Assembly: GCF_001477625.1 (NCBI RefSeq)
Contig: NZ_CP013692.1
Location: 4,526,001-4,590,000 of the forward strand
Source: Paucibacter sp. KCTC 42545
GTDB lineage: Bacteria; Pseudomonadota; Gammaproteobacteria; Burkholderiales; Burkholderiaceae_C
Direction of reading: 5' to 3'
Length of the DNA stretch: 64,000 bases
A model generated the notes under the pieces. The model had not been told where the DNA came from and ran no database searches. It saw only the letters and a list, made by a program, of their open reading frames with translations. Both the position numbers and the translations under genes were made by a program. Shown here piece by piece: positions 30,204 to 63,984 of the stretch; the first letter of the stretch is position 1, and the number at the start of each line of letters is the position of its first letter.

Positions 30204-30206
30204 ACA

Positions 30207-30226: not shown

Positions 30227-30274
30227 CGAGCGCGGCCGGGGGCGCGACGGCTGTACCGCCGCAACCTCAACGCA

Positions 30275-32379: not shown

Positions 32380-32690
32380 AGGGTGATGTCGCCCGTCTTG
32401 GCGATGACGGTGAGGTCTTTGCCGGCGGTGAGTGTGCCGCCACTCAAGCTTTGTTGGCTGCTGGCCGCTTGGGAGAAGCCGCTGCTTTGCACCCCTTGCA
32501 TGTCTGAGCTTTGGGTGTTGAGGCCGGCGGCGATGTTGACGCTGGCGCCTTGCAGGCCCAGCGTGTTACCGGCGCTCACTTGGCTGGCTTTGAGATCCAG
32601 GGCGGCGCCTGCGATCAGTGTGGCGTTTCCTTCTGCACTGAGCTGGCTGCCGAACTGGGCGGTGCTGGCGGACTGGGCATAGCGGTAACC
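32380..32690 (-). pseudogene. CdiA fragment, decayed copy 2 (part upstream of the IS5 element)
   Basis: About 310 bp matching the intact effector gene at about 36535-36845. It encodes GYRYAQSASTAQFGSQLSAE, then VSAGNTLGLQGASVNIAAGL, and SLSGGTLTAGKDLTVIAKTG. It is interrupted at 32379 by the IS5 element and continues at 31154. Its upper edge lies about 30 bp below the stop of the immunity gene, so the duplicated segment follows directly after the intact toxin-immunity pair. Confidence 0.85.
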
Positions 32691-32717
32691 CGTGAGGGCT
32701 GCGACTTGTTCGCCTGG

Positions 32718-33056
32718 TCAAGAGCCATCAACCACGCCATCTTCGTCTATCTTGTTATAAGGGAAACCTTTAATTGCCAGCATAAACTTGCTCAGTAGTT
32801 CTAATCCCTCAAGGTTACTCCATTCCTGCAGATTGGTTTCAAAATACCAATAGTTCATGTTTGGAACCACAAATGGTTTATCGATTTTCTTTTCCTTGGC
32901 AAGCCGCAGGGCGTCAACAAAAGGTGGGTACTGAGAAAATATTCCCAGGTCCTTAAACTTATTGCTATCGGCTGCTATCCGCCGCTCGAGCGCGAATGCA
33001 ATCATCTGGAATTGGTTTTTGTCTTCTTCGCTGAAAACAATATCAGGCCAGCTCAT
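32718..33056 (-). CDS. Candidate CdiI-type immunity protein
   Basis: A 112-residue acidic, soluble protein (MSWPDIVFSEEDKNQFQMIA, then NMNYWYFETNLQEWSNLEGL). Its ATG overlaps the stop of the giant effector gene as ATGA. It is distinctly more AT-rich than its neighbours, as usual for horizontally exchanged toxin-immunity modules. I do not recognise the family; the role is inferred from position, size and composition. It should neutralise the C-terminal domain of the effector in the cytoplasm. Confidence 0.75.
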   Translation of the reverse strand: MSWPDIVFSEEDKNQFQMIAFALERRIAADSNKFKDLGIFSQYPPFVDALRLAKEKKIDKPFVVPNMNYWYFETNLQEWSNLEGLELLSKFMLAIKGFPYNKIDEDGVVDGS

Positions 33057-45000: not shown

Positions 45001-48000
45001 GCACGTCACCGGAAGTGATCAGTTGCAAATCACCATGACTGCTGATCAAGCCCAAGACCTTGTTGTTGATGCCGTTGTTCAAGCCCGTCAGCGTCAAGCT
45101 TGCCGCGCCGCCACTGCTGCCAATTTGACCGCCGGAGTTATCGAGCGCACCGGCTTGCACAAGCAGTGCACCGGTCGAGACGATTTGACCGCCAATGTTT
45201 TGATTCTTGGCGCTGAGGTCCCTGGCTTCGAGGCTCAGGGTTTGAGCTGCGTTGATGACGCCACTGTTGCTGAAGCTTGCGACTTGGAGCTCGGCCTTGC
45301 CTCCCGCCTGGATACGGCCTGTCTGGTTAGGTCCGGCCAGATTGCTGAGCTGACCGACACTGCTGAGGAACAAGTGCCCTTCGGTGACGATGGCGCTGTC
45401 GTTACTCAAGGTTTGCGCGCTCACCGTCATAGGCCCTTTGGCCTGGATCGCACTCGCACCGGTGTTGCTCAGGGATCCTGCAACGCTTGCCGTGAGCGCA
45501 GCACCGCTGGCCAGGACCGCACCCCGGCTCTGGGCAAGACTGCCCGCTGTGAGTTCGGTGTCTCCAACACTGAGGATGCGCCCGCCCGTGCTGTTCACGG
45601 CGTTCGTCACGCTCAGGCTCAGTGAACTGCCGCTTTGCAAGACGCCGCTGTGATCCAAGGTTTGTGCTTTGACCGTGGTGTTGGCATCACTGCTCACGGT
45701 GCCCGCATTGAGCAGCTCACCTGTGCTGATCAGTTGCAAGTCGCCATGACTGCTGATGAGGCCCCGGATGCCCTTGTTCAGGCCATTTTTCAAGCCCGTC
45801 AGCGCCAAGTCGGCCGAACCGGCGCTGCTGCCAATTTGCCCGCCCGAGTTGTCGAGCGCCCCGGCTTGAAGCACAAGGGCACCGGTCGAGACGATTTGGC
45901 CACCGATGTTTTGATTCTTCGCGCTGATCTCAGTCGCTTGGAGGGTCAGGTTTTGCGCCGCACTGATCGAACCGCTGTTGCTGAAGCTGCCGACCTTGAG
46001 CTCCGCCTGTCCACCCGCCTGCACGCGTCCCCCCAAGTTGCTGAGTTGACCCGTGCTACTGAGGGTCAAGCGGCCTTCGGTGGCGATCGAGCCGTCGTTA
46101 CTCAAGCTTTGCGCGCTCACCGCCAGCGGCCCCTTGGCCTGGATGGCACTCAAGCCGGTGTTGCTCAATGAGCGCGCCACGCTTGCGCTGAGCGCGCCAC
46201 CGCTGGCAAGCACCGCACCCTGACTTTGATTCAAGGTGCCAGCGCTGAGTTCCGTGTCACCCACGCTGAGGATGCGCCCGCCGGTACTGTCCAAGGCTTG
46301 CGCCACATTCAGGCTCAGCGCACTGCCGCTTTGCACCACGCCGCTGAGATCCAAGGTTTGTGCCTTGACTGTGGCCTTCGCGTCGCTGCTCAACGTGCCC
46401 GCATTGATCAGCTCACCGGTGCTGATCAGTTGCAAGTCACCGTGACTGCTGATCAAGCCCTGGGTGACTTTGTTAGTGCTGCCGCTGTTGTTGCCGATAT
46501 TGATACCGTTATTCAAGCCAGTCAGTGTCAGGCTTGCCGTTCCAGAACTGCTGCCGATTTGACCGCCCGAGTTGTCGAGCGCTCCGCCTTGCAGCAGGAG
46601 CGTCCCGGTCGACACAATTTGGCCGCCGATGTTGAGATTCTTCGCACTGAGGTCTGTTGCCTCTAGGTTCAGGCTTTGACCCGCACTGATCGTGCCGCTG
46701 TTGTTGAAACTGCTGACTTTGATCGCGGCCTGCCCCCCTGCCTGCAAGCGGCCATTCAAGTTGCTGAGTTGCCCGGCGATCAGCGCCGTATTCCCCGCAC
46801 TGATGATGCTTCCGCCGGAGTTGTTCAGGGCTTGCGCGACGTCCAGGTTCAGCGCCGCCCCACTTTGCAACACACCGCTGTTTTGAAGAACGGAGGCCTT
46901 GACCACGGCCTTGGCATCACTATTCAGGGTGCCTGCATTGAGCAACTCACCGCTGCTCAGATTCAAGTCACCATGGCTGCTGATCAGGCCCGCGCTGCCG
47001 TTCTTGATGCCGCTGCTGACTCCGTTGTTCAGGCGGCTGAGCGTCAAGCTGGCCGCGCCGCCACTGCTGCCGATCTGACCGGCTGTATTGTCGAGAACAC
47101 CGGCTTGCAACTGAAGTGCGCCGGCCGAGACGATTTTGCCGCCGATGTTTTGATTCCTCGCGGCTGTGTCAGTTGCCTCCAGGGTCAACCTTTGTGCCGC
47201 GCTGATCGCGCCGCTGTTGTTGAAGCTGCCAACCGTCAGTTCCGCCTGGCCACGTGCTTGCACACTGCCGCTCAGGTTACTGAGTTGACCCGCACTGCTC
47301 AGGAACAAATTGCCCTCAGTAGCAATGGCACCGCCATCATTGCTTACGGTCTGCGCCGTCACTCGCAACGGCCCCTGGGCCTGGATGGCACTCGCGCCTG
47401 TGTTGCTCAAGGCTCCGGAGATATTGGTGGCGAGCGCCGCACCGCTGACCAAAGCGGCGCCGCGGCTTTGCGCAAAGCTGCCTGCACTGATGTCGCTATC
47501 ACCCGCACTGAGAATACGGCCGGCGCTGTTGCTCAAGGCTTGGGCCACATCCAGCTTCAGGGTGCTGCCGCTTTGCAACAGGCCGCTGTGATCCAAGGTT
47601 TGCGCTTTGATGACGGCCTTGGCATCGCTGTTCAGAGTGCCCTCATTGAGCAGAGCACCGTGGCTACTGATCTGCAACTCACCCTGGCTGCTGATCAAGC
47701 CTTTAGCGCCAGTGCTTTGATTCTTGGCGGCACTGTCCGTAGCTTCAAGGGTCAAGCTTTGACCCGAGGTGATCGCACCGCTGTTGTTGAAGCTGCCAAC
47801 CGTCAGTTGCGCGGGGCCTCGTGCCTGGACGCTGCCGCTCGAATTGCTGAGGTGCCCAGTACTGCTCAGGTTCAACGCCGCGTTGCTGACGATGGTGCCC
47901 CCGTCATTGCTGAGGGCTTGAGTCGTCACACTCAGGGGACCCTGAGACTGGATGACGCTTGCCTCCGTGTTGCTCAGTGCTCCGGCAACGTGGGTGGTGA

Positions 48001-51000
48001 GCGCCGCTCCACTGGCCAGCAGAGCTCCACCGCTTTGGGTCAATCGCCCCGCGACGAGGTCGATGTCGCCCGCGCTGATGATGCGTCCGGCCGAGTTTTT
48101 GAGGGCTTGCGCTACGTTCAGCCTCAAGTGAGTGCCGCTCTGCAGCACACCGCTGTGCTCCAGGGTTTGCGCACTCACCGTGGTCGCGGCATCACTGCTC
48201 AAGGTGCCTGCGTTCAGCAGCTCGCCACTCACGCTGAGCTGCAAATCGCCATGGCTGCTGATTAAACCCTTGGTGCCGCTTTTCGCTCCGCTGGCTCCTG
48301 TGTTGACTCCCGTGACGGCGCCAAAGCCACTCAAGGTGGGCAACTCGCCATTGATCAAGCGGCTCAATTCCACGCGAGCCGTGCCAGCACTGCTCCCCAC
48401 TTGGCCGCCCGAGTTGTCGAGCGCCCCGGCTTGCAGCACAAGCGCACCGGTCGAGACAATTTGCCCACCGGTGTTTTGATTCTTGGCACTGCGGTCCGTT
48501 ACGTCCAGCGTCAAGCCTTGACCCGAGGTGATCGCGCCGCTGTTGTTGAAACTACCGACCTGGAGCTCGGACTGGCCCCGCGACTGCACGCGACCACTCA
48601 AGTTGCTGAGCTGGTCCGCGCTGAGGAGCCTCAGTTCAGCGTTGCTAGCGATGGTCCCGCTGTCATTGATGAGAGTTTGGGCGGCCACACCCAGCGGCCC
48701 CTCGGACTGCATGACGCTAGCGCCGGTGTTGCTCAGAGTGCCTGCAATGCTTGTCGTGAGTGCTGCGCCGCTGGCCATGACTGCACCACGGCTTTGGCTG
48801 AAGCTGCCGGCGCTGAGTTCGGTATCGCCGGCGCTGATGATGCGACCCGCCGTGCTGCTCAAGCCTTGTTCCACGTTCAGGCGCAAGGTGCCGCCGCTTT
48901 GCAGCAGGCCACTGTGATCCAAAGTTTGCGCGTTGACCGTGGTGTTGGCATCACTGCTCAGGGTGCCGGCATTCACCAGAGTGCCGCTGCTGTTCAGCTG
49001 CAACTCACCTTGGCTGCTGATCAGGCCCTGCTTGCCATTGTTCTGACCATTGTTCAAGCCGGCCAGCGACAAGGTCGCACGGCCCGACTTGCTGGAGATC
49101 TCGCCTGCGGTGTTGTTGACATCTGTCGCGCGCAGGTCGATCTGTTGCGCACCGAGAAGTTGCCCTTGGCTGTTGTCCAGCACGTCCGCCGCAAGGCTGA
49201 GCTTGCCGCCAGCGGACACCTGACCCGCCTGGTTCAGAAACTCTTTGCCTCGGGTGTCTAGAGTCAGGTCGCCGCCTGTGAGCAGTTTTCCTGCTCGGTT
49301 GTCGATTTGGGCAGCCGAAAGCGTCAAGGTCTGACTGCCGATAACCTGGCCTGACTTATTGATCAGGGCACCGGGCGTGCCAGCGCGCTTGTTGAGTTCA
49401 AGGACGGTGTTAGCTGAAGCGACTTGACCGGCGCTGTTGTCCAGGTCGCTGGCGTGCACATTTAGGCTTTGGCCGCTCAGCAACTGACCTTGTGCGTTGT
49501 TCACGCCTCCTGCGCTGACGATCGCGAGTTGACTCGCAGCGCTCACAATGCCCTGCGCATTGTTCAGGGGACGATCCAAGGAATTGCTCAAATCGCCATC
49601 TGCACGCACTTCGATTGAGGCGTTGCTGAGGATTCGGCCAGCTTGGTTGTTGACCTGCGCCGCGTGCAGGCTTAGATCCCCTTGAGCGCTGAGACGACCT
49701 TGCGTGTTGTCGAGCGAGCCGGTGGTGATGCTCAGACCTTGCCCTGAAGCGATCTCCGCACGGTTGGTGAGACTTGAAGCAGTGATGCTCAGCGCCTTTG
49801 CGCTGCTGATGGTGGCGCCCTTGCTGCCGATATTGCCGCCGCCCTTACCGATGATGTCTGCTTGGTTGCTCACTGACTGGGCCGAGAGCACCAAGTCCCC
49901 CTGAGATGAAATGCTGCCGCCTGTGTTCGTCAGTACGTTGGCCTGAAGCGTCAGGCCAGCTGCACTCACCAAACTGGCTTGGTTGTTCAAGTTAAGCGTC
50001 TGAATCTGCCCCAAGCCTTCGGCGGCGATCTGCGCCCCATTGAGGTTGTTCAGCGTGGAGGCACTCAGCTGTAAGCCGCCTGCACTGTGAATCACGCCTG
50101 CATCGTTTTGCAAGGTCGCGGTCTTCAGCGTCAAGCCACTGGCACCCGCACTTAAAGTTCCCGCAGCGTTGCTGAAGGTGTTGTCCAAATTGAGGACGGC
50201 CGCACCGGCGGCGCTGATCCAGGCATGGTCGTTGACCAGGCTGCGAGCGCTGATGTCGAGCGTGCCTCCCTCTTTACCGCGCGAGACGATTTGCCCATGG
50301 TCGGACTGAAGGTCTCCTGCTTTGAGAGAGAGTTGGCCGTCAGAAACCAAGAGTCCGGAACCATTGTTCAACACCTGGCCGCGTGCATCGATGTCCAGAA
50401 CGCTCTTGCCTGATATCACACCGCCCCGGTTGCCCAATACCGCCGCTTGGATGGAACTGGTCTGGTCGCTGGCGATCAACGCGGGATTGGTACTGCTGGC
50501 GTTATTGATCAGGCCTGATGCTTGGAGCTGCAAGGCACTGGCGCCCAGCAGCTTGCCACCAGTGTTGTCCACCACACCAGGACTGCTGATCAAGAGCTGA
50601 CCATTGGCAAGGAAGGTGCCATCTCGATTCGAGATGTTGGCGCCTTGCACGTTGACATCATGCTGAGCCAACCAGAGTCCCCGCGTGTTGCTGAGTTCAG
50701 TGCCGGCACTCAGTTGGAGGTCTAGGCTGTTGCTGCGTGTATCACTTGCGACCAGTGCACCGCCATTGGCATTCAAATGTGTCGCGGCACCGCTGGTGAG
50801 CTGCGTTTGCGTCAAGTTCAGTTGTTGAGCGCTCAAGTTCAGCTGGCCTTGCGCCTGCCATTGACCTGCGTTATCGATCAACTCTTGAGCGTTCAACTGA
50901 AGGTCGCCGGCACTGGCGATGAGCCCGCTGGTGTGCGCCAAGCCCTTGACTCGGAGGTCCAGCGCTGAGCTCGACCCATGCTGAACCAGGGTCCCACGCT

Positions 51001-52249: not shown

Positions 52250-52276
52250 GGGGCTTCAGCTCGAAACGAATGGGAG

Positions 52277-54139
52277 TCAAAGAGCGCAACTGGCGCTCAA
52301 ATACAGGCTGGCACGGGCTGTTTTGAAGCCTTCAGGCCTGTACAGGGGTGCTCCTGCAGCGATGTCCAAAAGCAGGGCAGGCCAAGACTTGAATTTGCTG
52401 CGCGTGCCCAGCGTCAAGCCAGCCAAGTGATGACCGGGCAGGTGAGTGGCACTGGGCCCCCAAACCTTGCCGGCATCTGCGCCGATATAAACCGAGCCCT
52501 CCACCTCACTTAAACGAAATGCGCGAGACAGCTCATTGCGCCAGGTCCAGCCGCTCTCAGCCATCAAGACCGCGTCGCCATCAAAGCCCCGAACACTGCT
52601 GCGCCCACCAATGGCGATCTGGTCTGCGCTCAGGCTCAGGCGGCCGCCAAACTGCGCGCGCCATTGACTGCTCCACTGCCAGTCCCGAGATTCGGAAAGC
52701 GGCAGGTTGAGCGTCAAGCCCGTCAACCACAAGTGCGGGCGCAGCGTCGGTACTCCACCGGGGTTCAATGGATCTTGGGCGAGATCCTCCTCGGCCCCCA
52801 GCCAAGAAACGCCTCGCTTGTAGGCTGCCTCACCCTCCAAGGTCCCGTGCTGGCCAAGGATGCGCTTGAAGCTCAGGCCGCTTTCAAAAAAACGTGTCCG
52901 GCGGCGCTGCGTCTCCAGCGCGATGTCTTCCAAAAATCCTTGCGACTGGCGACTGGAAAGCGCCACAGTGAGCCCCACTTTGCTGGCCTCGCCACGCAAA
53001 AGAACACGTTGCCAACGCAGCTCTCCGCTGTCCGAGACGCCACTGGAGAGGATCGTCGTGCTCGTGAGTTGCACGCGCTGGGCAAACCGGCTGTGGTTGA
53101 GGTTGATGCTGAAGGTGTCGTATCCCCAAGGCACGCTGTACGCGATCGACAGCCCTTGTGACCTGTGTTCAGGACTGAGCCGCTCAAGATTGCTGTTGAC
53201 ATTGACGCTGACAAGATCGTTCCACCCGAACGGGTTGTCCAGGGCCAAGTTGGCCGCCACTTGCGCGCGACCCAAGGTCGGCCCGCCCGAGTTATCTAAA
53301 GAGAACCCGCCGCGCAAGCGCTCCTGCCAGTCGCCACTTTGGCGAACAATCGTCAGCACGCTGGTCTCAGGTTTGCTCCCCGGACTCAGGGAGGTTTTGA
53401 CATCCTGACTGGGAAGGCGCTTCATCTGCTCAATGCCTTGCTCGAGGTCTCGGGCATTGAGACGGTCACCAGCCGCCAACGGGAAAGCGTTGCGCCATGT
53501 TCCCCATTCGCGGTCTGCTTGTGGCTGGGCTGATTGAGGGGCGGCGCGTAGCATCTGCACTTGCTCAATGCGTCCGACGTACAACTCAAAGGCCAGTCGC
53601 CCTTGGCTCATGTCCTGCTGACCCACACCGACCCGACTGGTCACCCAGCCTTCGCCGATGAGCAATCCGTCCAGGTAAGCCGCTATGACGGCAATCCCTT
53701 GCGCACCAATGCACTGTTGCTCAAACTGCTGCGCATAGGACTGCAGCCAACGAAAGCGCACGGCGTCCCCACCCAAGATCGCAATATCCTGAATCTGGAA
53801 GCATGGGGTTTCTTTGGGCAGTTCCGGCGCCTGGGCGCCGGGACGAGCCTGCTTCAAGTTGTCAGCGCGCGGGAGGGTTGATTCTTGCTGCGCACGATCT
53901 CTCTGGGCTTGGCGGCGAAGTCCTTCATCCACGGTACCTGCCAAAGAAGCCAAGCCTTGACCGTAGGCATTGCGGCTGAGCCCTAGAAGAAGAGCCAACA
54001 CCCCAATGGAGAGCACCGCTGCGCTCGGATGCCCAACATATTGCTTACTACGTCTCACTTGGAACGAACTATCTTGATCGCCTTCGATTCTGGGACGATC
54101 GGTCAACACGTTGGCGCATTTGAGACGAAGCCATGCCAT
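52277..54139 (-). CDS. Two-partner secretion outer-membrane transporter (TpsB/ShlB/CdiB family)
   Basis: A 620-residue transporter for the giant effector. After a long leader with hydrophobic segment AAVLSIGVLALLLGLSRNAY (cleavage near AYGQG) there is a linker, POTRA domains (CFQIQDIAILGGDAVRFRWL, then LLIGEGWVTSRVGVGQQ) and a 16-strand barrel. Barrel marker motifs are GFSLDNSGGPTLGR and SSVRGFDGDAVLM, the latter carrying the VRGF tip motif of the L6 loop. ATG 54139 was preferred to a TTG at 54175. It lies 27 bp upstream of the effector gene, forming a tpsB-tpsA operon. The last residue is Leu rather than the frequent Phe. Confidence 0.93.
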   Translation of the reverse strand: MAWLRLKCANVLTDRPRIEGDQDSSFQVRRSKQYVGHPSAAVLSIGVLALLLGLSRNAYGQGLASLAGTVDEGLRRQAQRDRAQQESTLPRADNLKQARPGAQAPELPKETPCFQIQDIAILGGDAVRFRWLQSYAQQFEQQCIGAQGIAVIAAYLDGLLIGEGWVTSRVGVGQQDMSQGRLAFELYVGRIEQVQMLRAAPQSAQPQADREWGTWRNAFPLAAGDRLNARDLEQGIEQMKRLPSQDVKTSLSPGSKPETSVLTIVRQSGDWQERLRGGFSLDNSGGPTLGRAQVAANLALDNPFGWNDLVSVNVNSNLERLSPEHRSQGLSIAYSVPWGYDTFSINLNHSRFAQRVQLTSTTILSSGVSDSGELRWQRVLLRGEASKVGLTVALSSRQSQGFLEDIALETQRRRTRFFESGLSFKRILGQHGTLEGEAAYKRGVSWLGAEEDLAQDPLNPGGVPTLRPHLWLTGLTLNLPLSESRDWQWSSQWRAQFGGRLSLSADQIAIGGRSSVRGFDGDAVLMAESGWTWRNELSRAFRLSEVEGSVYIGADAGKVWGPSATHLPGHHLAGLTLGTRSKFKSWPALLLDIAAGAPLYRPEGFKTARASLYLSASCAL

Positions 54140-54159
54140 TGCGTATTGAGATGCCCTTA

Positions 54160-54174
54160 GGAGGGGGCAGGTCA
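54160..54174. repeat. Solo end matching the nested IS3-type element
   Basis: The 15 bp are the exact reverse complement of the left tip of the IS3-family element at 58288 (TGACCTGCCCCCTCC). No element body is attached on either side. It lies just upstream of tpsB and may be a scar of deletion or one-ended event. It is GC-rich and short, so coincidence cannot be fully excluded. Confidence 0.4.
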
Positions 54175-55269
54175 ATTTAGCAGAGCCATCTCTTGGCTGG
54201 CAATTTCGCCCGCCAACGATTGATACCCAGTTCCACCTGAGCTTGTCGCTGCTCGACTCTTCAACCGCAAGAGGTCAGGATGGCGCACCATTGGCCGTTG
54301 TCGCTGGTGAGACTGAATCAAAGAAACCTCACCGGTGCAAGAGGTCGGCGGCGTTGTGCCCAAGTTGGGGCAGTGGGCAACGCCATATCTCCGTCAGCCT
54401 TTGGTCGCTCACTTTGCAGCAACATCACCGATCGGCCCATTGCGAGCCAAGGGCCTTCCTTCGGCCCCCAAGTAAAGCGGTGCGCACGGCTAATGCGGGT
54501 GCCGCCCAGCCATTGAGTTTGGCGTGCGTGCATCACCTCGTGCCTGTACAACGTTTGTGTCATGGACATGCTCTGTGAATACTCAAGGGATTCAAAGGCG
54601 AGCCGACAAACGCTGAGCTTGATGACGACCTGAGGAACTCAGACCGGCAACCCCGCTATCTTGGGAGGGCTCCTCGTATAAAAGGGGAGCCCGCCAACAC
54701 CGGAGGCTTTGCGTCGCCGGCTCGCGCCGGGTTTGCTATTCAGGCCGCCCCAGATGGGGACATGGGCCTAGTCTTGATCTCAAAGCTGCCGTAGCAGCTT
54801 TGATGGCAATTCATGACTTTGTTCATGAACTGATGACCGAGAGCGAACTCTAGCGGCGATATTTGCAACTTGATACTCCCCAAAATGACGGGGGTAGTCA
54901 GATCACTATTTTTATAGTACCGAAGCAATTGAAGTTGCGTCCTCAGCAATGCGCAGATGCCGGCCGAGCGGGCGCATGGTGAGACCGCTTCATTCTCCTA
55001 CTCTCAACCGCGCCCATCGCCGCTATTGCAGAGGATGGCAGCCTGGCACAGTTGAGGAGGGCGGGTTCTCACCACCCCGCACAAGCACGACGAGCGAGTT
55101 TGAAAGATAGGGGCCAGCCCATGATTCGGTGGTCATGTCGACATCATGCCTAGGCCGGAGCTTCCATGACTCCTGGCGGAGTCTCGATGTACAAGACTCA
55201 TTCAGGCCTCGAAACGACATAACCCCCTGTGCTTTGGCGTTATCCTGGGCAAAAAACCAGGGAGGTAAG
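54175..55269. other. Long intergenic region between tpsB and the three-gene operon
   Basis: Apart from the possible HlyD relic I find no supported gene. A hairpin is visible at 54667-54692: GGGCTCC and GGAGCCC, 12-nt loop. The stretch from about 54750 to 54960 is notably AT-rich. Divergent promoters for tpsB and for the operon starting at 55270 must lie here, but no clear -35/-10 pair could be assigned by eye. Confidence 0.5.
54470..54569 (-). pseudogene. Possible N-terminal relic of an HlyD-type secretion adaptor
   Basis: The first 33 residues of a minus-strand frame (MSMTQTLYRHEVMHARQTQW, then LGGTRISRAHRF) resemble the cytoplasmic start of HlyD-family membrane-fusion proteins of peptide exporters (pattern LFRQEVxxARQxxWLG). 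After that the match stops and no membrane helix or periplasmic domain follows. The frame continues to 54318 without recognisable content. Family assignment is from memory of the pattern and is tentative. Confidence 0.3.
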
Positions 55270-55983
55270 GTGATTGAGATCAATGTTCCGCGCGAGGAGC
55301 GCGAGGCGATCAAGGCCGTCGATGTCACTCGATTGCTGCACTTGGTCGATCAGTGCATGCGCGAGGAGCGTCTATCTGCACTGATAGAGCTGCGGCTTGA
55401 GGATTGCGGCACCTACGTCGGATCTAAATATCGAGTCTACGCGCAATCGCTGGCCGACCATGCGGCAGCGAAGGCAGCCAAGAAGCGGTCGATGACGGAT
55501 CACAGGGCACGTTCCGCCGGTAGCGATCTGGTAGCTGCGATCCACGAGATGAAACATCGGGTGGCGACCGAAGAGACGGAAGACCAACTCTTTCAAGTGG
55601 AAGACTGCGTCTCACCGCCACACGTCCTCGATGAGCGTATCAACGTACGCGTGGGCTACCGTTGGCGGCGATCTGTAGACGACGATTGGACCCGCGGCAG
55701 CATCACATTTGTCCACGACGTCGACATGCAACCCGATTTCCGCATGCCGCCGCCTAATCGCAAGCCCAGCGCCGCAAAGCAGGCTGAGGCGCGGAGGGAG
55801 GAGCTCTACCGCACTTGGGAACACCTCACGATGCTGGCACTTCACGCCGTGAAAAGGTACTTCCGCGACGGTGGTCGGGCTGACGCCATCCCGCGGGTGT
55901 TCCTGGCCAAACTTGACTCGCATTCACGTGGGCTGAACAACTTCAGTGCCAACTTCTGGCCCGAGCCCACCCTCGGCGGCTGA
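55270..55983 (+). CDS. Unknown protein, first gene of a three-gene operon
   Basis: A 237-residue soluble protein without signal peptide or membrane segments. It begins with VIEINVPREEREAIKAVDVT at a GTG directly behind GGAGG (55261-55265), which decides the start. The central part is basic (KAAKKRSMTDHRARSAGSDL); later there is a beta-rich part (NVRVGYRWRRSVDDDWTRGS, then ITFVHDVDMQPDF). The C-terminal 70 residues are helical. No family recognised. The next gene begins 4 bp after its stop, so the two are co-translated or at least co-transcribed. Confidence 0.75.
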   Translation: MIEINVPREEREAIKAVDVTRLLHLVDQCMREERLSALIELRLEDCGTYVGSKYRVYAQSLADHAAAKAAKKRSMTDHRARSAGSDLVAAIHEMKHRVATEETEDQLFQVEDCVSPPHVLDERINVRVGYRWRRSVDDDWTRGSITFVHDVDMQPDFRMPPPNRKPSAAKQAEARREELYRTWEHLTMLALHAVKRYFRDGGRADAIPRVFLAKLDSHSRGLNNFSANFWPEPTLGG

Positions 55984-55987
55984 TCCT

Positions 55988-57151
55988 ATGGCAACCGCCG
56001 TTCGCGTCGTCACAAGTGGCGAGGCCGCACGACTGCAGATCAAAACGGCTCAGTGGCCGTTCCAGAGTACACAATCATCCGTCAACATTCACCTGTCAAC
56101 GGACGATTGGCACCCTGGAAATATCAAAGCGCGATGGTCAAATGGAATATTGTATCGTCGACCAGCGCACGCTGCCCACAACTATACTTTCAGGGTTATG
56201 AAAACTAGAGAACGAACGATTTACTTCTACGACACCCGGGTTCAGGCCAAAACTCGATCGGATGGTATCGAAACCCCGAGCTGTATCTCCATGCGAGAAG
56301 TGCTCACGCTGATCTCGAAGCTGGACTTGAAGGGACGGCATGGTGCATTCCAGCGCGCGGAAACCGAGCTGTTTCAGATTCAGGATTTCCATTTCAATCC
56401 TGCCACGTGCGAATTGCAACTGCTGATCAATCATGCTGACAAGGCCCTGGCTGACCCGGTCTTCAAGAATTTCGAGAATCGTCGGGTTCGAAACGCAGGC
56501 AAGGAAGCCATTGAAGGCATCGATGTTTCCGCTCATGTGCTTATCCGGCCCTCAACAATGGACACGCACGAGGCCCTGCTGCTGGTCACTTATGGCTCGG
56601 GGGTGACGGCCAAGCTAATCGAATGGCTGCTGGGGAAACTGATGGGTCTCGCTGGCGGTGATGTGCGGAACAAATCGTTTTTCGAATTTCGCCACCCCTC
56701 GGGCGAGGCGGGGAAGTTCTATTCGGTTAAGTACAGATTCGAGTGCGTGGGCCACAAGAGCCAGAAACTCAGCGACGATCTGGTCCGAGGCAACCTCCAG
56801 AGCGTGGAACTGATCAGCAAAGAACCGTCCAGCATCGATGCGGGCAGTTCATTCTTCGTCGCCACTCGAACGCTCAACATCAAGCCGGTTTCTACGGCGC
56901 ATCCCACGCTGGGCGCTGTCATCAGTGCGGTTCGAACCGTCACCAAATCCACCCATGAGCGCTACGATTCCGTGCGGGTCCGCTTCAAGGATGCCAACGA
57001 CACGCAGCGCGAAGAACTCTTCGCCGCCAATGACTTAGAGGCAGCCTTTGTTCGCAAGGAACGCCTTAAGTTCGATACTGACCTACCATCTCAACAGATT
57101 CGAATCAACCGAACGATCATGACCGCGATGCGCGAACTCTGCGATGAATAG
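55988..57151 (+). CDS. Unknown protein, second gene of the three-gene operon
   Basis: A 387-residue protein predicted to be cytosolic. Sections include YTFRVMKTRERTIYFYDTRV, ELFQIQDFHFNPATCELQLL, and TKLIEWLLGK-like helical part (AKLIEWLLGKLMGLAGGDV); the C-terminus is basic and helical (QIRINRTIMTAMRELCDE). No nuclease, helicase or NTPase motif is evident. ATG 55988 follows the first gene by 4 bp. The organisation, two soluble proteins followed by a four-helix membrane protein on a mobile island, is reminiscent of small antiphage systems such as Kiwa, but I do not see sequence identity to KwaB and do not claim it. Confidence 0.75.
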   Translation: MATAVRVVTSGEAARLQIKTAQWPFQSTQSSVNIHLSTDDWHPGNIKARWSNGILYRRPAHAAHNYTFRVMKTRERTIYFYDTRVQAKTRSDGIETPSCISMREVLTLISKLDLKGRHGAFQRAETELFQIQDFHFNPATCELQLLINHADKALADPVFKNFENRRVRNAGKEAIEGIDVSAHVLIRPSTMDTHEALLLVTYGSGVTAKLIEWLLGKLMGLAGGDVRNKSFFEFRHPSGEAGKFYSVKYRFECVGHKSQKLSDDLVRGNLQSVELISKEPSSIDAGSSFFVATRTLNIKPVSTAHPTLGAVISAVRTVTKSTHERYDSVRVRFKDANDTQREELFAANDLEAAFVRKERLKFDTDLPSQQIRINRTIMTAMRELCDE

Positions 57152-57161
57152 GTAGCCGACC

Positions 57162-57743
57162 GTGCTTACCGAACTCAGCCGCCCATTCTCCTACCTGAGC
57201 ATCCGCCATCCTGCGGAGGGCGTGCGGTGGGTGAACTGGTGGCTACCCCTCCTGGCAAGCATCGCATTGGTTGCCCTTTGTGGCTCCATGGAGCGACGCG
57301 TCGACCTTTTCGGCGCGTCCGGAGTAATCAATAAGGTCCTGGGCTTCATTCAGAGCCTGCCAGGCTTCTACCTCGCAGCACTGGCGGCAGTCGCCACCTT
57401 CAACAATCCGGATATGGACAGGCTAATGCCTGGTACGCCGCCGACCGCAAGGATTCTCTACAACGGCAAGCTGATCACGGTTGAACTCACCAGGCGGCGC
57501 ATGCTTTGCATCATGTTCGCCTACCTTACGGTACTGAGTTTTGTCTTGACCATGAGCTCGATCGCGGCCATGACGTTTGCTGAAGATATCAAGGCGGCGA
57601 TTCAGGAAAATTCACCGCTGTTGATCCGCTGGATAAAGGCTGCCTTCACGTCTATCTATTTCGGGGCCTTGTTCCAGATGCTCACCATAACCATGTGGGG
57701 ATTATTCTATCTTGGCGAGCGAATGCATACGCCGGATCGCTGA
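57162..57743 (+). CDS. Four-helix membrane protein, third gene of the operon
   Basis: A 193-residue protein with four predicted membrane helices: WWLPLLASIALVALCG, FIQSLPGFYLAALAAVATF, MLCIMFAYLTVLSFVLTM, and SIYFGALFQMLTITMWGLFY. Short cytoplasmic or periplasmic loops contain the charged DRLMPGTPPTARILYNGKLI. It starts at GTG 57162, 10 bp after the second gene, with GGTAG as weak ribosome-binding site. It could be a membrane effector or sensor partner. No family recognised. Confidence 0.75.
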   Translation: MLTELSRPFSYLSIRHPAEGVRWVNWWLPLLASIALVALCGSMERRVDLFGASGVINKVLGFIQSLPGFYLAALAAVATFNNPDMDRLMPGTPPTARILYNGKLITVELTRRRMLCIMFAYLTVLSFVLTMSSIAAMTFAEDIKAAIQENSPLLIRWIKAAFTSIYFGALFQMLTITMWGLFYLGERMHTPDR

Positions 57744-57820
57744 TGCCCACAGATGGCGGCTGCTCGTTCGGTCCCCCAAAACCAAGCGATTCGAGGTATC
57801 CTGATACGGCTTGATAAGTC

Positions 57821-58253
57821 TCAGTAGTCCATATTTTCATAGTGATTCTGGATTTCATTCCACAACAAAATCTGCGCCTCGATCTCCTCGATTGAACGCC
57901 TGCCGAGCCCTCGGTACTCCTCTAGTTGGTATTCCGTCCAAACCGGATGGATACCACCAACAGCGATGAAGGAAAAATTGGCGCTCATGGCGCCTACCGC
58001 GGCCAGCGCCATATACAGCCACCATTAAAGGGTAGTGCCACATTGGCGAATCCCGCCACCCCCGGCCGTCGTTGATCTTGACAGGTAATCCCGCTTTTTC
58101 GGTGGGGCAACTCCTACCCATCGGCCCATCTGGATACAAGGGAACTGGTGGCGGTGAATTCGTGTTTTGGCATGCCCAAGCTACGCCGATAAACCTGCGT
58201 GTGTGAAATAGCCTAAATGAATCTGTTGCATTCAACGGATCCTCCCACCACAC
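57821..58253 (-). pseudogene. Frameshifted small membrane protein
   Basis: Two overlapping minus-strand frames make one sensible protein if a shift near 58012 is corrected: WHYPLMVAVY from the upstream frame joins MALAAVGAMSANFSFIAVGG from the downstream frame, forming one membrane helix. The C-terminal tail is charged (RRSIEEIEAQILLWNEIQNH). The upstream part reads PPPVPLYPDGPMGRSCPTEK. No family recognised. The segment 57744-57820 holds nothing I can name. The shift could also be two unrelated short frames. Confidence 0.35.
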
Positions 58254-58337
58254 ACATATGCGAAAGTGTTGATACCACCCGCCAACCTGACCTGCCCCCT
58301 CCCGCCGTACCAGCCATGCGGAAGTCCCGGTTGAAGG

Positions 58338-58635
58338 TTACTTGATCTCGTTGCGTGTAGCCGGTGGCGCCTGGTTCTTGGTGCGGTGGCGCTGCGCGAA
58401 CTCGGCCGGCGGTATCCGACCCAGGCTGCTGTGCGGCCTCACCTCGTTGTAGTCCTGCCGCCAGATGGCGATCTCCGAGCGCGCCTGCGGCAGCGTCTGG
58501 AACCAGTGCTCGTTCAAGCACTCGTCGCGGAACTTGCCGTTGAAGCTCTCGATGTAGCCGTTCTGCATGGGCCGCCCTGGCTGGATGAGGATGTGCCGCA
58601 CGTCGTGAGCTTGCGCCCAAGCGATGAAGGCCCGG
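58338..58635 (-). pseudogene. Outer IS3 element OrfB, 3' part
   Basis: C-terminal part of the DDE transposase, separated from its 5' part by the inner element. It reads from [20 protein letters not shown] and includes [20 protein letters not shown], which carries the catalytic Glu. The stop is at 58338. Joined to 59827 onward it restores [12 protein letters not shown] in frame. Confidence 0.9.
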
Positions 58636-58677
58636 GGTAATCCCCCCGTTTTACATTGAATCGAGAAGTAGAAAGGG

Positions 58678-59478
58678 TCATGCAACGTTGGCCAGTCGCT
58701 GCTTGGGGGTGATGCCGCCCAAGGCCATATTTGGGCGGTCGTGATTGTATTTCCACATCCACTGGGTGGCGAACAGCTGAGCCTCTTGCAAATCGGACCA
58801 CAGGTATTGCGACAACCACTCATAGCGCACCGTCCTGTTGAAGCGCTCGACATAGGCGTTTTGCTGCGGGTTACCCGGCTGGATGTGGTCGAGTTTGATG
58901 CCCCAGTCATGTGCCCAACGCTGGATGGTTGCGCTGATGTACTCGGGGCCGTTATCGCAACGAATGACCTGTGGTTTGCCACGCCAAGCAATGATCTGCT
59001 TGAGTGCCCGGATGACGCGCTCTGAGGGCAGCGAGAAATCTATTTCGATGCCCAACGCTTCTCGGTTGAAGTCGTCAATGACGTTGAACAACCGGAAGCT
59101 GCGCCCGTCCTCAAGTTGATCGTGCATGAAGTCCATGGACCAGACTTCGTTGATGGCCTGCGGCACGCTCAAGGGCTCAGGCTTGCCCCGCACCTGCCGT
59201 TTACGCGGTTTGATGCGCAAGTTCAGCTCCAACGCCCGGTAAACCCTGTAAACGCGCTTGTGATTCCATGGGAAGCCTTTGACGTTGCGCAAGTACAGGT
59301 AACACAGGCCAAAGCCCCAGTGGCGATTGTTGTCCGTCAGCCGCATCAGCCAATCGGCGATTTGATCGTCCTGGTCATTCTTCTTGACCTCGTAGCGGTA
59401 GCATGACTCGCTGACTGTGAAGATGTTGCAGGCCAGCCGGATGCTGGTGCCACGCTGGGCCACCACTTCTTTGGCCAT
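58678..59478 (-). CDS. Inner IS3 element transposase OrfB
   Basis: A 266-residue (from the first ATG) DDE transposase: [20 protein letters not shown] (Asp), [18 protein letters not shown] (Asp) and [19 protein letters not shown] (Glu). It probably has no independent start: an AAAAAAG slippery run at 59505-59511, just before the orfA stop, would give an OrfAB fusion by -1 frameshift, as is usual in this family. Confidence 0.95.
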
Positions 59479-59501
59479 CTCGCGGCGGCGAGACGGCCAC
59501 G

Positions 59502-59765
59502 TTACTTTTTTGCAAGGTACTCCGCAGCAATCTCGGCCTTGAGCTTTTCCTCAATGTACATCTTCTTGAGGCGCCGATTCTCCTCTTCGAGTTCCTTCAT
59601 GCGGGCCATGAGGGAGGTGTCCATGCCTCCAAATTTGGCTCGCCATTTGTAAAACGTGGCGGTGCTGATGCCGACCTCTCGGCATAGGTCGGGAACGGGC
59701 AAGCCTGCCTCAGCGCGTTTGAGCGCATCCATGATCTGGCTGTCGGAAAACTTGGACTTCTTCAT
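59502..59765 (-). CDS. Inner IS3 element OrfA
   Basis: An 87-residue transposase-8 helix-turn-helix protein: [20 protein letters not shown], then [20 protein letters not shown], and a leucine-rich coiled coil ([20 protein letters not shown]). The A6G slippery run lies at its 3' end (59505-59511), allowing the OrfAB fusion. Confidence 0.95.
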
Positions 59766-59826
59766 GTAGAAATTCTCTTCGAGAAATTTCTACTTCTCGC
59801 GCCAGTGGTTTGACGGGAGGGTTACC

Positions 59827-60410
59827 CCGGCAGGTGAACTCCGGCCCGTTGTCGGTTCTCACCGCCGCAGGGTAGCCCCTGAAGATCGCGGCCCGGTCCA
59901 GCAACCGCGTCACGTACTGGCCCGAGATGCCGTAGTCCACGGCGATGTCCACACACTCGTGCGTGAAGTCGTCGGCCACAGTCAGGCACTTGATACGCCG
60001 GCCATTGGCCAGGCTGTCGGAAACGAAGTCCATGCTCCACACCTCATTGACTCGGGTCGGCACGGTGAGCGGAACGCGCTCGCTGGCTGCCCGTCTGATC
60101 TTCTTGCGCTTGCGCACCGCCAACTGCGCCTGGCTGTACAACCGATAGACGCGCTTGTGATTGACGCCTGGGAACTGTGGGCGCAGCAGGTCATGGATGC
60201 GGCGATAGCCGAAGCGGCGCCGCACCTGTGCGATCTCGACGATCTTGGCGCTGAGTTGCTGCGTGGCCTCATCGACCACGGGCGGGTTGCGATAGCTGTC
60301 TCTGGAGAGCCCCACCAGGCGGCACGCGCGGCGTTCGGACAGATGGTGCTGGGCAATCATCTGGGTCGCCGCGTCGCGCCTGACCTGCGGGGCTAGGGCT
60401 TTACGCCGAA
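59827..60410 (-). pseudogene. Outer IS3 element OrfB, 5' part
   Basis: N-terminal part of the DDE transposase. It reads RRACRLVGLSRDSYR, GYRRIHDLLRPQFPGVNHKR, then [20 protein letters not shown] with the first catalytic Asp, and VRTDNGPEFTCR with the second, ending at the insertion point. Expression would rely on frameshifting from orfA; the exact upstream limit near 60410 is approximate. Confidence 0.88.
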
Positions 60411-60668
60411 GACGTCCTTGAGCGCGTGGATGTCCAGGTGGGCCTCTGCCAGCAGGCGCTTGAGCTTGGCGTTCTCGCCTTCGAGCTCGCGCAGTCGCTT
60501 GGCATCCGTGGCCTGCATGCCGCCGTACTTGGCCCGCCACTTGTAGAACGTGGCGTCGCTGAAGCCGCCTTGCCGGCACAGCTCCTTGATCGGCATGCCG
60601 GCCTCGGCCTGCTTCAGGAACCCAATGATTTGTTCCTCAGTGAATCTGCTCTTTTTCATGTCCATCAT
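60393..60668 (-). CDS. Outer IS3 element OrfA
   Basis: A 91-residue transposase-8 protein: MMDMKKSRFTEEQIIGFLKQ, then [20 protein letters not shown], and a coiled coil (RLRELEGENAKLKRLLAEAH). Intact, but its OrfB partner is disrupted, so this copy cannot transpose by itself. Confidence 0.93.
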   Translation of the reverse strand: MMDMKKSRFTEEQIIGFLKQAEAGMPIKELCRQGGFSDATFYKWRAKYGGMQATDAKRLRELEGENAKLKRLLAEAHLDIHALKDVFGVKP

Positions 60669-60730
60669 TCTCCTGGTTGATGGACTTCCTCTCCATTACG
60701 CTGGTACGGCTGGGAGGGTGCAGGTCAAAC

Positions 60731-60760
60731 CCGATAGGGTCAGATTGGGTGTACTGCCTA
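60731..60760. terminator. Inverted repeat downstream of the MFS-acyltransferase gene
   Basis: CCGATAGG and CCTATCGG form an 8-bp perfect stem with a 14-nt loop, about 35 bp beyond the stop of the minus-strand gene ending at 60794. It could end that transcript. No U-run follows, and the outer IS3 element inserted right beside it. Confidence 0.4.
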
Positions 60761-60793
60761 TCGGCCATTCGCATGGGCCTTGGCCGGAGTGGC

Positions 60794-62740
60794 TCAGAGC
60801 AGGCCCTGAACCTTGGACCGAAGCTCATCTACGCTTACTTCGTGTGGCAGCGGGAGGCCGACGTGCACATCCACCGGGCGCCTGGGATACAAGCTGACCA
60901 GGCGAGCACCCAGGCCCTTGCGGTTCCGGGCGAAGGCTGACTCCCACAGGCCTGTCAACCCAATTGGGATAACCGGCACGGCGTTGGTGTCGAGCATCCG
61001 GCGGACACCGGGCTTGAACTCAGCCAGTTGACCATCGCGGGTGAGCGCGCCCTCGGGGAAGACGCACACCAGCTCACCGTTGCGGAGCGCCTCGTTGACG
61101 GCCGCCATGGCACGTTCGAGGGCCTCCGGCTCCTCCTTCGCCGATGCGATGGGGATGGCGTTGACCTGGCGGAAGAGCCAAGACAGCACGGGAACACGGA
61201 AGATACGCGCGTCCATCACGAAACGGATTGGTCGCGGGCACAGCGCGCTCAGCACCAGCGCATCCACATACGATACGTGGTTGGGCGTGAGGAGCGCCGG
61301 CCCTTCCTCAGGGATGTTGTGGGTACCGGTGGTTCGGAGCCGGTAGATCGCGTGAACCACGAACCAACTCACAAAGCGCCACAGGAACTCGGGCACCGTC
61401 CGATAGATGTAGGCAGCGACCAGTGCATTCAGGCCGGCGCAAACCCAGATGAGCCCGGTAATTGAGATGCCGTATGCGAGCAGGCCGGCGGACATGCCCG
61501 CGGCGATAACCATAGCCACCGCATTAAGTACGTTATTCGAACTTATGATGCGCGACTGACGTGCCGGGGCTGTACGCAGTTGGACGAAGGCGTACAGCGG
61601 GACGATGAACAGGCCTCCGAACAGACCCAGCAGGGTAACGCCGCTGAGTACCCGGATGCTTCCAGTGGTGGCGAGGAACTGTGTCCAGCTCAATGGCATG
61701 TTCAAGGTTGAGGCATGCAGCGCTGCAGCGAAGCGGTCGCAAGACCAGGCCAGGTCTGCGGTGAAGAGCGACAAGCCGATGGAGCCAATTGGCACCAAGC
61801 CAATCTCTACCTTGTGTCCAGACAGGCGCTCACACAGCAGCGAGCCCGCAGCGATGCCTACGGAGAACGTGGCCAGCAGAACCGTCACGACCGTGGTGTC
61901 CCCTTGCAGCACGTCCTTGCCAAGCGCGGGAATCTGCGAAAGGACCACAGCGCCAACGAACCAGAACCATGAGATGGCGAGGAGACTGTTCCAGACGCCT
62001 TCACCTTCGCGTTTGCCCATCTTCACGGTTGCGATGGTCTCGGAAACCACGCTGAAGCGGAGCTTCAAGTCAGGGGCCGCTTCGCCAGTGGCCGGGATGA
62101 AGAGGCTCGAGGCGAGACCGAGGAGAGCGAAGCCCAGGAGAGCGATGAACAGCCATAGGGGGTTGATCGTCATAGCAGCAATGACGCCAGCCGCCAGCGT
62201 GCCCATGAGGATGCTGAGGAACGTGCCCATCTCCAGCAGGCCGTTTCCGCCGGTCAGCTCCTCCTTGGCCAGGACCTTCGGGAGCAGCGAATACTTGACC
62301 GGGCCGAAGAAGGCGGAGTGGCACCCCATCGCGAAGATGGAAGAGAGCAACACCGGCAGGCTTTTCATGTAGAAGCCTACGCTGGCTATCACCATGATGG
62401 CGACCTCGGCGGTCTTCACGGCGCGGATGACCCTGGCCTTGTCGAACCGGTCGGCTAGCTGGCCAGCGTAGGCCGAGAAAAGCACGAACGGAAGGATGAA
62501 AAAACCGGCCGCCATGTTCGCGACCAGCCCGGCGGACAGCGTCGTGTACTCGGTGGCGTGGAACGTTACCAGCAGGATGACCAATTGCTTCAGGAACGCG
62601 TCGTTGAACGCTCCAGTCAGTTGAGTCGCGAAGAACGGCCCGAACCTGCGCTGACCGAGCAGGCGGAACTGGGATGGCGATGCTCCGTCGTTCGAAGTGT
62701 GGTGGTTCATGTCCGGCCCGTTCATGTTGTTGTGGCTCAT
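60794..62740 (-). CDS. MFS lysophospholipid transporter fused to acyltransferase (LplT-Aas-like)
   Basis: A 648-residue inner-membrane protein. Residues about 20-430 form the LplT-type MFS domain: RFGPFFATQLTGAFNDAFLK, then GPVKYSLLPKVLAKEELTGG. Residues 440-648 are a PlsC-type acyltransferase with HVSYVD (HX4D) and CVFPEGALTRDGQL, so catalysis looks intact. It would flip and reacylate lysophospholipids. It is homologous to the gene broken by the island, lies just inside the right end in the same orientation, and its ATG at 62740 overlaps the stop of the truncated host gene (ATGA). At the residue position of the attachment site it has NNVLNA, encoded by different, AT-rich codons that do not contain GAGGAT. 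In-frame ATGs at 62725 and 62710 are alternative starts. Confidence 0.92.
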   Translation of the reverse strand: MSHNNMNGPDMNHHTSNDGASPSQFRLLGQRRFGPFFATQLTGAFNDAFLKQLVILLVTFHATEYTTLSAGLVANMAAGFFILPFVLFSAYAGQLADRFDKARVIRAVKTAEVAIMVIASVGFYMKSLPVLLSSIFAMGCHSAFFGPVKYSLLPKVLAKEELTGGNGLLEMGTFLSILMGTLAAGVIAAMTINPLWLFIALLGFALLGLASSLFIPATGEAAPDLKLRFSVVSETIATVKMGKREGEGVWNSLLAISWFWFVGAVVLSQIPALGKDVLQGDTTVVTVLLATFSVGIAAGSLLCERLSGHKVEIGLVPIGSIGLSLFTADLAWSCDRFAAALHASTLNMPLSWTQFLATTGSIRVLSGVTLLGLFGGLFIVPLYAFVQLRTAPARQSRIISSNNVLNAVAMVIAAGMSAGLLAYGISITGLIWVCAGLNALVAAYIYRTVPEFLWRFVSWFVVHAIYRLRTTGTHNIPEEGPALLTPNHVSYVDALVLSALCPRPIRFVMDARIFRVPVLSWLFRQVNAIPIASAKEEPEALERAMAAVNEALRNGELVCVFPEGALTRDGQLAEFKPGVRRMLDTNAVPVIPIGLTGLWESAFARNRKGLGARLVSLYPRRPVDVHVGLPLPHEVSVDELRSKVQGLL

Positions 62741-63984
62741 GCGAAGCTTGGACGCGCTGCGTTGAAGCCCTGCGCCGTGAACAACTTGACCCGATATAAG
62801 AGGATGTTGTTGGCGGCAATGATGCGGGCGCGGTGTGAGGGTTGCGAGCGCAGCTGGATCAGCGCGTACATGGGCACGCTGTAAAGCCCGGCGGACAAGG
62901 CCAGCATGCCCAGGTCCAGCAGCACGCGCCAATGGGCGGGTAGGCTGAGGAACTCGGCCACGCCCAGCAGCGGCGCGGCGGGCAGGCCGCGCGAAGCGAA
63001 GTAGAGGTCCACCGCAAACACCGTCATGCCCAGCGCGCCCAGCGGCGCCAGGCCGATCTCCACATGGCGGCGCGAGAGCAGCTCGCACAGCAGCGCGCCA
63101 ATGCCCACGCCCACCGAAAACACCACCATCAGCAGCGAGGCCACGGCGCTCTGGCCGTGCAACACCTCTTTGGCAAAACTGGGGAAGTTGGCCAGGAACA
63201 CGACGCCGAAGAACCACATCCACGAAATGCCCACCAGCGAGCGGAATACCACCTTGTCCTGGTAGGCCAGCTTGAGGTTGTTCCAGGTCTCGGTGAAGGG
63301 GTTCCAGTTGATGCGCAGCTGGGGGTCGGTGGCGGGGCTGTGAGGCACGAACTGCGCGGCGATGCGGCCGGCCACGGCCACCGCCAGGCAGGCCAGGCCG
63401 GTGGCGATGGCGCCCACCTCGGGCAGGCCAATCAGCAGGCCGCCCAGCACATTGCCCAGGATGATGGCCACAAACGTGCCCATCTCCACCATGCCGTTGC
63501 CGCCGGTGAGTTCACGCTCGCTCAGCTGCTGCGGCAGATAGGCAAACTTGACCGGGCCGAACAAGGTGGAATGCATGCCCATCATGAACACGCAGGCCAG
63601 CAGCAGCGGCACTTGCGCATGCCAGAAGCCCCACAGGGCCAGGGCCATGATGGCGATCTCGAAGTTTTTCACCAGGCGCATCAGGCCGCCTTTTTCGAAC
63701 TTGTCGGCCAGCTGCCCGCTGGTGGCTGAGAACAGCACAAAGGGCAGGATGAACAGCGCCGCGATGACGACCCCGGCCTGCGCCGCCGGCAACCACTGCA
63801 GCTGCAGCTGGTAGGTCACCATCACAGTCAGCGCGAATTTGGAGATATTGTCATTCGCCGCGCCGAGGAACTGAGTCCAGAAGAAAGGCGCGAAGCGGCG
63901 CTGCTTGAGCAGGCCGAACTGGCTGGTGTGCTGGCTTGGGGGATTCACCGCGGGGGCTTTCTTGTCATGGAATGTGGACGGCAT
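62737..63984 (-). pseudogene. LplT-like MFS transporter gene, 5' half, ending in an island-encoded tail
   Basis: The first 393 codons (63984 to 62806) encode an LplT-like MFS protein: RFAPFFWTQFLGAANDNISK, GPVKFAYLPQQLSERELTGG, and RARIIAANNIL. At GAGGAT the frame enters the island and adds LYRVKLFTAQGFNAARPSFA before a TGA. The missing part is at 18172-18807. The truncated protein lacks the last membrane helices and is probably inactive, but translation up to its stop places ribosomes at the overlapping start of the island homologue. ATG 63984 gives the usual N-terminus; the promoter lies outside the window. Confidence 0.92.
62800..62805. other. Right attachment-site repeat (attR core GAGGAT)
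   Basis: Second copy of GAGGAT. Sequence to the right is transporter gene, to the left island. The adjoining island bases (ending in CCCGATATAA) mirror those at the left end imperfectly: read inward, both ends show TATAT, then GG, then TC, and GTTCAC about 20 bp in. Confidence 0.88.

Follow-up and report, generated by a model that had tools for sequence, protein, structure and literature searches.

Genomic islands with three integrases (GInt) carry the ginABCD operon, excise as a circle, for which all four gin genes are needed, and insert between genes or at the 5' or 3' ends of genes (PMC5385486). In the part of that account covered here, Bardaji et al. propose that GInt insertion probably does not fully inactivate its targets, either through altered C-termini or through outward-directed promoters (PMC5385486); gin-related elements are also the subject of a host-range paper (PMC10214605). 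An island of another kind, RME of Vibrio cholerae S24, is inserted in recA and carries its own functional recA, and Rapa et al., in the covered parts of their paper, state the idea of rescue and cite a thymidylate-synthase case in C. difficile (PMC4405046). In this work, we present an analysis of a gin-type island from Paucibacter sp. KCTC 42545 (single-contig genome, G000), located in a stretch of 64,000 nucleotides (bases 4,526,001-4,590,000) that is referred to below as the window and whose positions serve as coordinates. This island breaks a host gene of the MFS-PlsC type and carries a foreign full-length homologue whose target site has been recoded; we consider it likely that the homologue takes over the function of the broken gene and that the recoded site is immune to the island's own recombinases.

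The limits of the insertion were obtained by comparison with the empty site of a sister species (G695). Window positions 9749-18807 align to positions 283-9311 of the corresponding locus (L062) with 94.8% identity, and positions 62800-64000 to 9306-10506 with 95.9%; the two matches overlap by exactly 6 bp, hence the core GAGGAT is common to both island ends. The product of the interrupted gene combines an MFS transporter with a PlsC-type acyltransferase (lplT-like), and the best NCBIfam models for it are of acyl-[ACP]--phospholipid O-acyltransferase, with scores under the model cut-offs. In G695 this gene is unsplit and shows 98.7% amino-acid identity to the 5' part and 95.6% to the 3' part found in the window. 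The fusion open reading frame formed at the junction ends 20 residues past the crossover and the split gene is not restored. At the opposite end, the first island bases (18808-18822) give the orphaned 3' part an in-frame ATG at 18822, from which this part may be translated.

A four-gene recombinase operon (19015-24907) forms the left end of the island, and homologues of its genes stand in the same order at other gin-type loci (e.g. L076 and L082-L087); the gin-type assignment was made from this layout and these homologues. An earlier, sequence-only reading of the window had taken the island for a recombinase-trio element of the GInt type. This is right as far as the ginABCD-like operon and the repeated 6-bp core are concerned, but the AT-rich 3' end of 0.2-0.4 kb, which belongs to GInt in the covered part of its description (PMC5385486), is absent: the GC content is 0.57 in the last 65 bp of the island and 0.62 in the gene next to them. 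For this reason the island is called gin-type or GInt-like here, and not GInt.

Directly inside the right end, on the same strand as the host gene, lies a complete second MFS-PlsC gene. Its product shares 42% identity with the native MFS part and 34% with the native 3' part, and carries the acyltransferase motifs NHVSYVD, which we take to be of the HX4D type, and FPEG. The TGA stop of the truncated host frame (63984-62737) overlaps the ATG of this replacement gene in the sequence ATGA (62740-62737), so that both the full homologue in the same orientation and the overlapping start codon described in the sequence-only reading were confirmed. Given the fixed point of insertion, any host possessing this site would end up with an identical fusion and overlap. 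No Shine-Dalgarno sequence was seen before this ATG or before either of the two further in-frame candidates (62725 and 62710), and a consensus scan of positions 60,500-64,000 revealed no sigma-70-like site, with 0.6 expected. As a matter of anatomy, translational coupling through the ATGA overlap is plausible and no more than that, in view of the two alternative start codons downstream; the copy would probably be expressed from the host promoter in this way.

The second copy came with the island, because the sister species has the gene unsplit and in one copy only: its single MFS-PlsC-type match (E 1e-12) is the unsplit gene itself, and the replacement gene is not a normal chromosomal neighbour of the target in this island-free relative. 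In a tree of 59 rows, the 29 rows from the host family form a clade excluding the replacement copy (100/100). The copy's neighbour in the tree is a G381 gene, from a different family of the same order (100/97), and its long branch (1.72) has a position that the tool rates as unsure. Its ten best relatives among 398 other genomes of the order are 49-55% identical. By these comparisons the copy was acquired horizontally and has a foreign ancestry.

Searches with GinC detected relatives in 12 of 298 other genomes of the family (E 1e-10), in 1 of 398 other genomes of the order (E 1e-30) and in 0 of 368 other genomes of the class (E 1e-30), while an alignment query matched 1 of 306 other genomes of the class (E 1e-15); no second copy of the window island was found in these family, order and class genomes. 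In the order- and class-level searches, both for GinC and for relatives of the replacement gene, at most three candidates were scored per genome and second copies could be missed. No MFS-PlsC piece was present in the other gin loci searched, of which ten were covered over about 1.5 kb on each side of the match, and three plasmids with MFS-PlsC genes lack an annotated gin operon. No confirmed relative came from three scans of IMG/VR with gin queries. Tandem MFS and MFS-PlsC genes in G687 were considered as a counter-example and rejected, since the two are separated by two further genes and none of the gin genes was found in the 19.9 kb covered.

No other 8-codon window of the gene is as conserved as the one that holds the insertion site (rank 1 of 641, with 46 other full-length orthologues). 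The native site reads AAC AAC ATC CTC AAC GCC and the copy AAT AAC GTA CTT AAT GCG, i.e. the residues NNVLNA are encoded by different, AT-rich codons, just as had been pointed out from the letters. Among 58 other copies of the site, 23 have ATCCTC and 16 ATCCTG, while GTACTT occurs in none (0). The site windows of the replacement gene have the lowest codon adaptiveness of the whole gene (rank 1 of 641) and include its lowest-GC 30-mer; of the 56 windows with amino-acid conservation of at least 0.8, the three in which the copy matches the other sequences least all lie on the site. Compared with G695, the copy differs at 6 positions over 18 bp and at 15 over 30 bp.

Apart from the window island, 24 chromosomal or draft-genome gin loci are known, 19 of which were screened; the other five are on a short contig or near a contig end, have a partial operon, or have no left flank. 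With 14 of the 51 plasmid records containing a GinC match, which were opened and screened as well, the total amounts to 33 loci, in six of which (G283, G136, G125, G030, G1070b and G862) the left flank was estimated, no GinA match being available to place the left end. Nine of the 33 carry a full-length homologue of their own split gene, which belongs to the radical-SAM (one locus), SbcC/SMC-like ATPase (four) or DUF736 (four) family. The radical-SAM gene of G206 (PA0069 family) is split at its GCEH/GCIYC motif, with the fragments 43 kb apart, and the full homologue adjoins ginD on the opposite strand; a congener (G111) has the gene unsplit, with a single match only, and thus represents the empty site. 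In G053, G046, G267a and G267b an element of about 12 kb interrupts the ATPase gene immediately past the P-loop and brings along a full homologue of 826-830 aa, accompanied in G053 by merA. The elements of G053 and G046 are 98.9% identical but inserted in different ATPase alleles, and G053:C5 contains an unsplit version of the G046 allele (99.5% over 2,352 bp and 95.8% over 649 bp). On plasmids of Ancylobacter, Mesorhizobium and Bradyrhizobium (L211, L214, L218 and L220) a DUF736 gene is split at AACGGCTT, with a full DUF736 gene just inside the right end of the element, and one such element (98.3%) is found twice in a single strain, on two plasmids and in different DUF736 alleles. The four ATPase insertions belong to a single element family and are to be counted as such; these two DUF736 loci, out of the four, likewise represent one element. 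A tenth locus (G183) has a remnant only, the C-terminal 94 residues of an ATPase copy. Replacement of the target gene, suggested originally from the window alone, thus finds support both in the island-free sister species and in nine further gin-type loci from three other target families.

The crossover could be compared in these copies as well. In the four ATPase copies, two of which are near-identical, the residue following DNL or DCL is V, V, T and V, whereas the natural or split genes have H or Q in ten cases out of ten read (two of them alleles of one gene). All four DUF736 copies read NEDGSF, with the core GACGGTTCG or GACGGCTCT in place of AACGGCTT; this site varies naturally, hence the DUF736 family neither supports nor contradicts recoding. 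At the level of sequence, two of the four target families (MFS-PlsC and ATPase) show clear recoding of a site that is otherwise invariant or almost so. The comparison lends support to the predicted self-immunity in these two families, is uninformative for DUF736 and argues weakly for it in the radical-SAM family.

Like GInt, the window island has a four-gene recombinase operon at one end, one insertion site, a 6-bp core at both ends and variable cargo; unlike GInt in the covered part of its description (PMC5385486), it possesses a full-length copy of the target and a recoded site. With RME, as far as the covered parts of its account go (PMC4405046), it shares a conserved gene split internally, an integrase at one end and a complete divergent copy at the other, the replacement gene standing opposite to the gin operon. 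The two differ in the target (recA there, MFS-PlsC here), in the mobility genes, which in RME are one phage integrase and a XerS, and in the LexA-box promoter of the recA copy; the parts of the RME account covered here do not discuss the copy's own site or immunity (PMC4405046). Tyrosine-integrase islands that restore tRNA genes (Islander, PMC4383910, covered in part) resemble it in that an element repairs its own insertional damage; there, island sequence restores the same gene, while here a diverged full-length gene would substitute for it and the fusion stays broken. The sequence-only reading did not know this strategy to be described. The general idea of rescue is in print for the recA island (PMC4405046, covered in part), so that an island carrying a copy of the gene it splits is known. 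The literature covered, which left out most subscription journals, yielded neither a description of target copies with recoded sites nor one of gin elements that characteristically replace their target. Synthetic cleave-and-rescue gene drives break a conserved gene and supply a recoded version of it; they are designed nuclease systems, not site-specific integrases.

In the mechanism we propose, site-specific recombination would bring the island into the most conserved codons of the MFS-PlsC gene and destroy that gene. A recombinase site in conserved codons, as in three of the four families (MFS-PlsC signature, P-loop of the ATPase and radical-SAM cysteine motif), would widen the host range and at the same time break the gene; the cost of insertion would be removed by the divergent full-length homologue aboard, whose expression would rescue the host. 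The recoded site in the homologue would not be used by the recombinases of the island, which would confer immunity in two ways: the circular element could not recombine its attI with its own cargo gene, and a second element would find no place for insertion. We assign even chances to the broader proposal that replacement of the target gene by a recoded copy recurs as a module among gin-type elements, many of which would have evolved towards the least variable codons because many hosts share them, with the damage paid for by a foreign full-length copy whose site is kept mutated against the element's own recombinases.

Several observations weigh against this interpretation. The tight ATGA coupling is confined to the window island: merA intervenes in the ATPase element of G053, the G206 copy has the opposite orientation, and the copies of the DUF736 elements are situated downstream of gin. 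In L209, L210 and L217 a split plasmid ParB-like gene has no replacement and ginD is followed by the target's own 3' half, which means that replacement is not obligatory (3 of 33 loci); the ParB-like genes after ginD on these three plasmids were rejected as replacements, being the 3' halves in question. No target homologue was found in 20 of the 33 screened loci, where the target itself was not established; some left-flank genes of these loci look complete by eye and would need no replacement. As to the recoded site, the claim that the copy lacks GAGGAT stands for the homologous position only, since the hexamer is present once elsewhere in the gene (62207-62212). The codon and conservation ranks are post hoc and come from overlapping windows, the nucleotide deficit at the site ranks 9 of 641 over all windows and not first, and in 2,000 synonymous shuffles the low GC content of third codon positions was reached at the site in 12 but somewhere in the gene in 1,709. 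Part of the divergence could reflect general fast evolution of the copy, given its long branch. The exact AACGGCTT core occurs in only 2 of 10 natural DUF736 copies, several of which have extra residues there, and the codons of the radical-SAM copy are ordinary (rank 324 of 390), with 1 changed base among the 6 that surround the crossover and 3 among 24. Finally, HX4D and FPEG motifs are missing from the native 3' part of G000 and of the island-free G695 alike, and in G695 this part shows neither the NHVSFVD-type nor the FPEG-type motif carried by its genus relatives; judged by its motifs, the native acyltransferase domain is already dead before the insertion. Since, moreover, the ATPase and DUF736 targets look accessory, the rescue of a needed function remains a proposal.

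The state of the native domain in G695 means that the island brings more than it removes, and it may add a function to the host as well as replace one. A rather doubtful explanation, to be taken seriously nonetheless, is that the island is kept for its active acyltransferase in a lineage with a dead PlsC domain, with the replacement being incidental. The copy does have both catalytic motifs missing from the native 3' part, and several members of the genus keep the MFS half only; such a gain of function is compatible with replacement, but it leaves the recoded site and the ATPase, radical-SAM and DUF736 cases unexplained. We find it improbable that the second gene is ordinary cargo, a chance paralogue of the target whose site changed by drift. 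The island does hold much unrelated cargo, and the long branch, the 20 loci without a target homologue and a site change that is uninformative in DUF736 and slight in radical-SAM would all agree with this; yet in nine more loci, spread over three additional target families, the homologue carried is one of the very gene that was split. No other left-flank gene (examined up to 5 kb at chromosomal loci and 2.5-5 kb on plasmids) had a convincing long homologue in the cargo, the exceptions being a weak regulator-type match in G136 (27.6%), presumably LysR, and scattered weak or short matches. The ATPase copies, furthermore, are altered at the crossover and the natural genes are not.

Very improbable, in our view, is an origin of the copy by capture of the host gene when the element once excised imprecisely, or through recombination of allelic islands, with no selection for replacement involved. 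The att sites of GInt are reported to change on excision (PMC5385486, covered in part), but excision at the site would capture only half of a gene, whereas full-length genes are found; the altered core is by eye unlike attI, and near-identical elements (98.9% and 98.3%) keep the same copy in different target alleles.

Table 1. Features of the gin-type island and of the host gene split by it (positions within the window)
Feature	Position	Strand	Remarks
Island	18808..62805		43,998 bp; GC 0.61 vs 0.66 in left flank; from comparison with G695 and composition
attL, left copy of 6-bp crossover core GAGGAT	18802..18807		from comparison with G695
attR, right copy of 6-bp crossover core GAGGAT	62800..62805		from comparison with G695
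Host target gene, 5' part	62737..63984	-	395 native residues and 20-residue tail read from the island; stop overlaps replacement ATG
Host target gene, 3' part	18172..18807	-	probably last membrane helices, and degenerate PlsC domain
Replacement gene, full-length MFS-PlsC	60794..62740	-	648 aa; same strand as host gene, directly inside right end
Recoded copy of target site, NNVLNA	61520..61537	-	AAT AAC GTA CTT AAT GCG
Right-end leader	62741..62805	-	65 bp between crossover and replacement ATG; no Shine-Dalgarno sequence, no promoter-like site by consensus scan
ginA-like tyrosine recombinase	19015..20385	+	Phage_integrase PF00589
ginB-like protein	20382..22397	+	no Pfam match; homologous to second gene of other gin loci
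ginC-like protein	22401..24440	+	no Pfam match
ginD-like small protein	24437..24907	+	no Pfam match
Possible left terminal inverted repeat TGTTCAC	18827..18833		just 7 bp long; chance alone would give about 0.5 such matches
Possible right terminal inverted repeat GTGAACA	62777..62783		inside leader; 7 bp, about 0.5 matches expected by chance

The bulk of the island cargo consists of a gene for a 6,398-aa two-partner-secretion exoprotein (33053-52249, minus strand), with ESPR and TPS domains in the 416-aa N-terminal piece that was searched, and of one for a ShlB/FhaC-type transporter (52277-54175, minus strand). A cluster of flotillin, YqiJ and PspA/IM30 genes (26562-29616, minus strand) is membrane related, like the replacement gene. 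At 30275-32245 a DDE transposase gene lies within fragments that look, by eye, like a portion of the giant exoprotein and apparently represent a broken duplicate. Two transposase remnants with rve and HTH_Tnp_1 domains, presumably of the IS3 type, are located just left of the replacement gene (58678-60668, minus strand). Within the genus, the native gene has a degenerate PlsC half (G695) or none at all, with an MFS-only gene in at least 8 of 17 other genomes (L052, L034, L053-L057 and L059-L061); G687 and G688 each hold an MFS-only gene together with a full MFS-PlsC gene.

Some features of the other loci deserve mention. In L199 (G118:C78) the start of a match to the ATPase gene (16353-16667) coincides with the split point, about 120 bp short of the contig end; this is possibly a further insertion lost in assembly. 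Intact genes that retain in full the crossover sequence used by ATPase or DUF736 elements occur in L197 (G053:C5), L213 (21625-21936) and L221; G053 and the strain of L221 hold such an element elsewhere, beside the intact crossover-bearing gene. The three ParB-like loci L209, L210 and L217 are natural controls for the replacement idea, and L216 and L219, in which only one gene half was matched, may be further cases. The Methylomonas plasmid pUP202 (L120, 8818-14560) has a gin operon without annotated cargo between traU and traN, and also the closest GinC relative found (38-40%). According to the annotation, a Sphingobium plasmid carries a second gin-like operon (L208, 29154-34361), and tandem tyrosine-recombinase trios lie near the gin loci of L211 (29254-32389) and L217 (19134-22590).

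The combination of a gin operon, a split gene and a full copy provides a search rule that leads to elements with their exact ends and att sites, and self-immunity of an integrase is made testable by single codon changes. If the proposed interpretation is true, it would explain how a site-specific element can live in conserved gene motifs without heavy cost to its host, and it would name a driver of xenologous gene replacement, the element itself swapping the host gene. The arrangement looks like a natural break-and-rescue strategy, which would be a counterpart of the engineered cleave-and-rescue drives and would turn over host genes by xenologous replacement.

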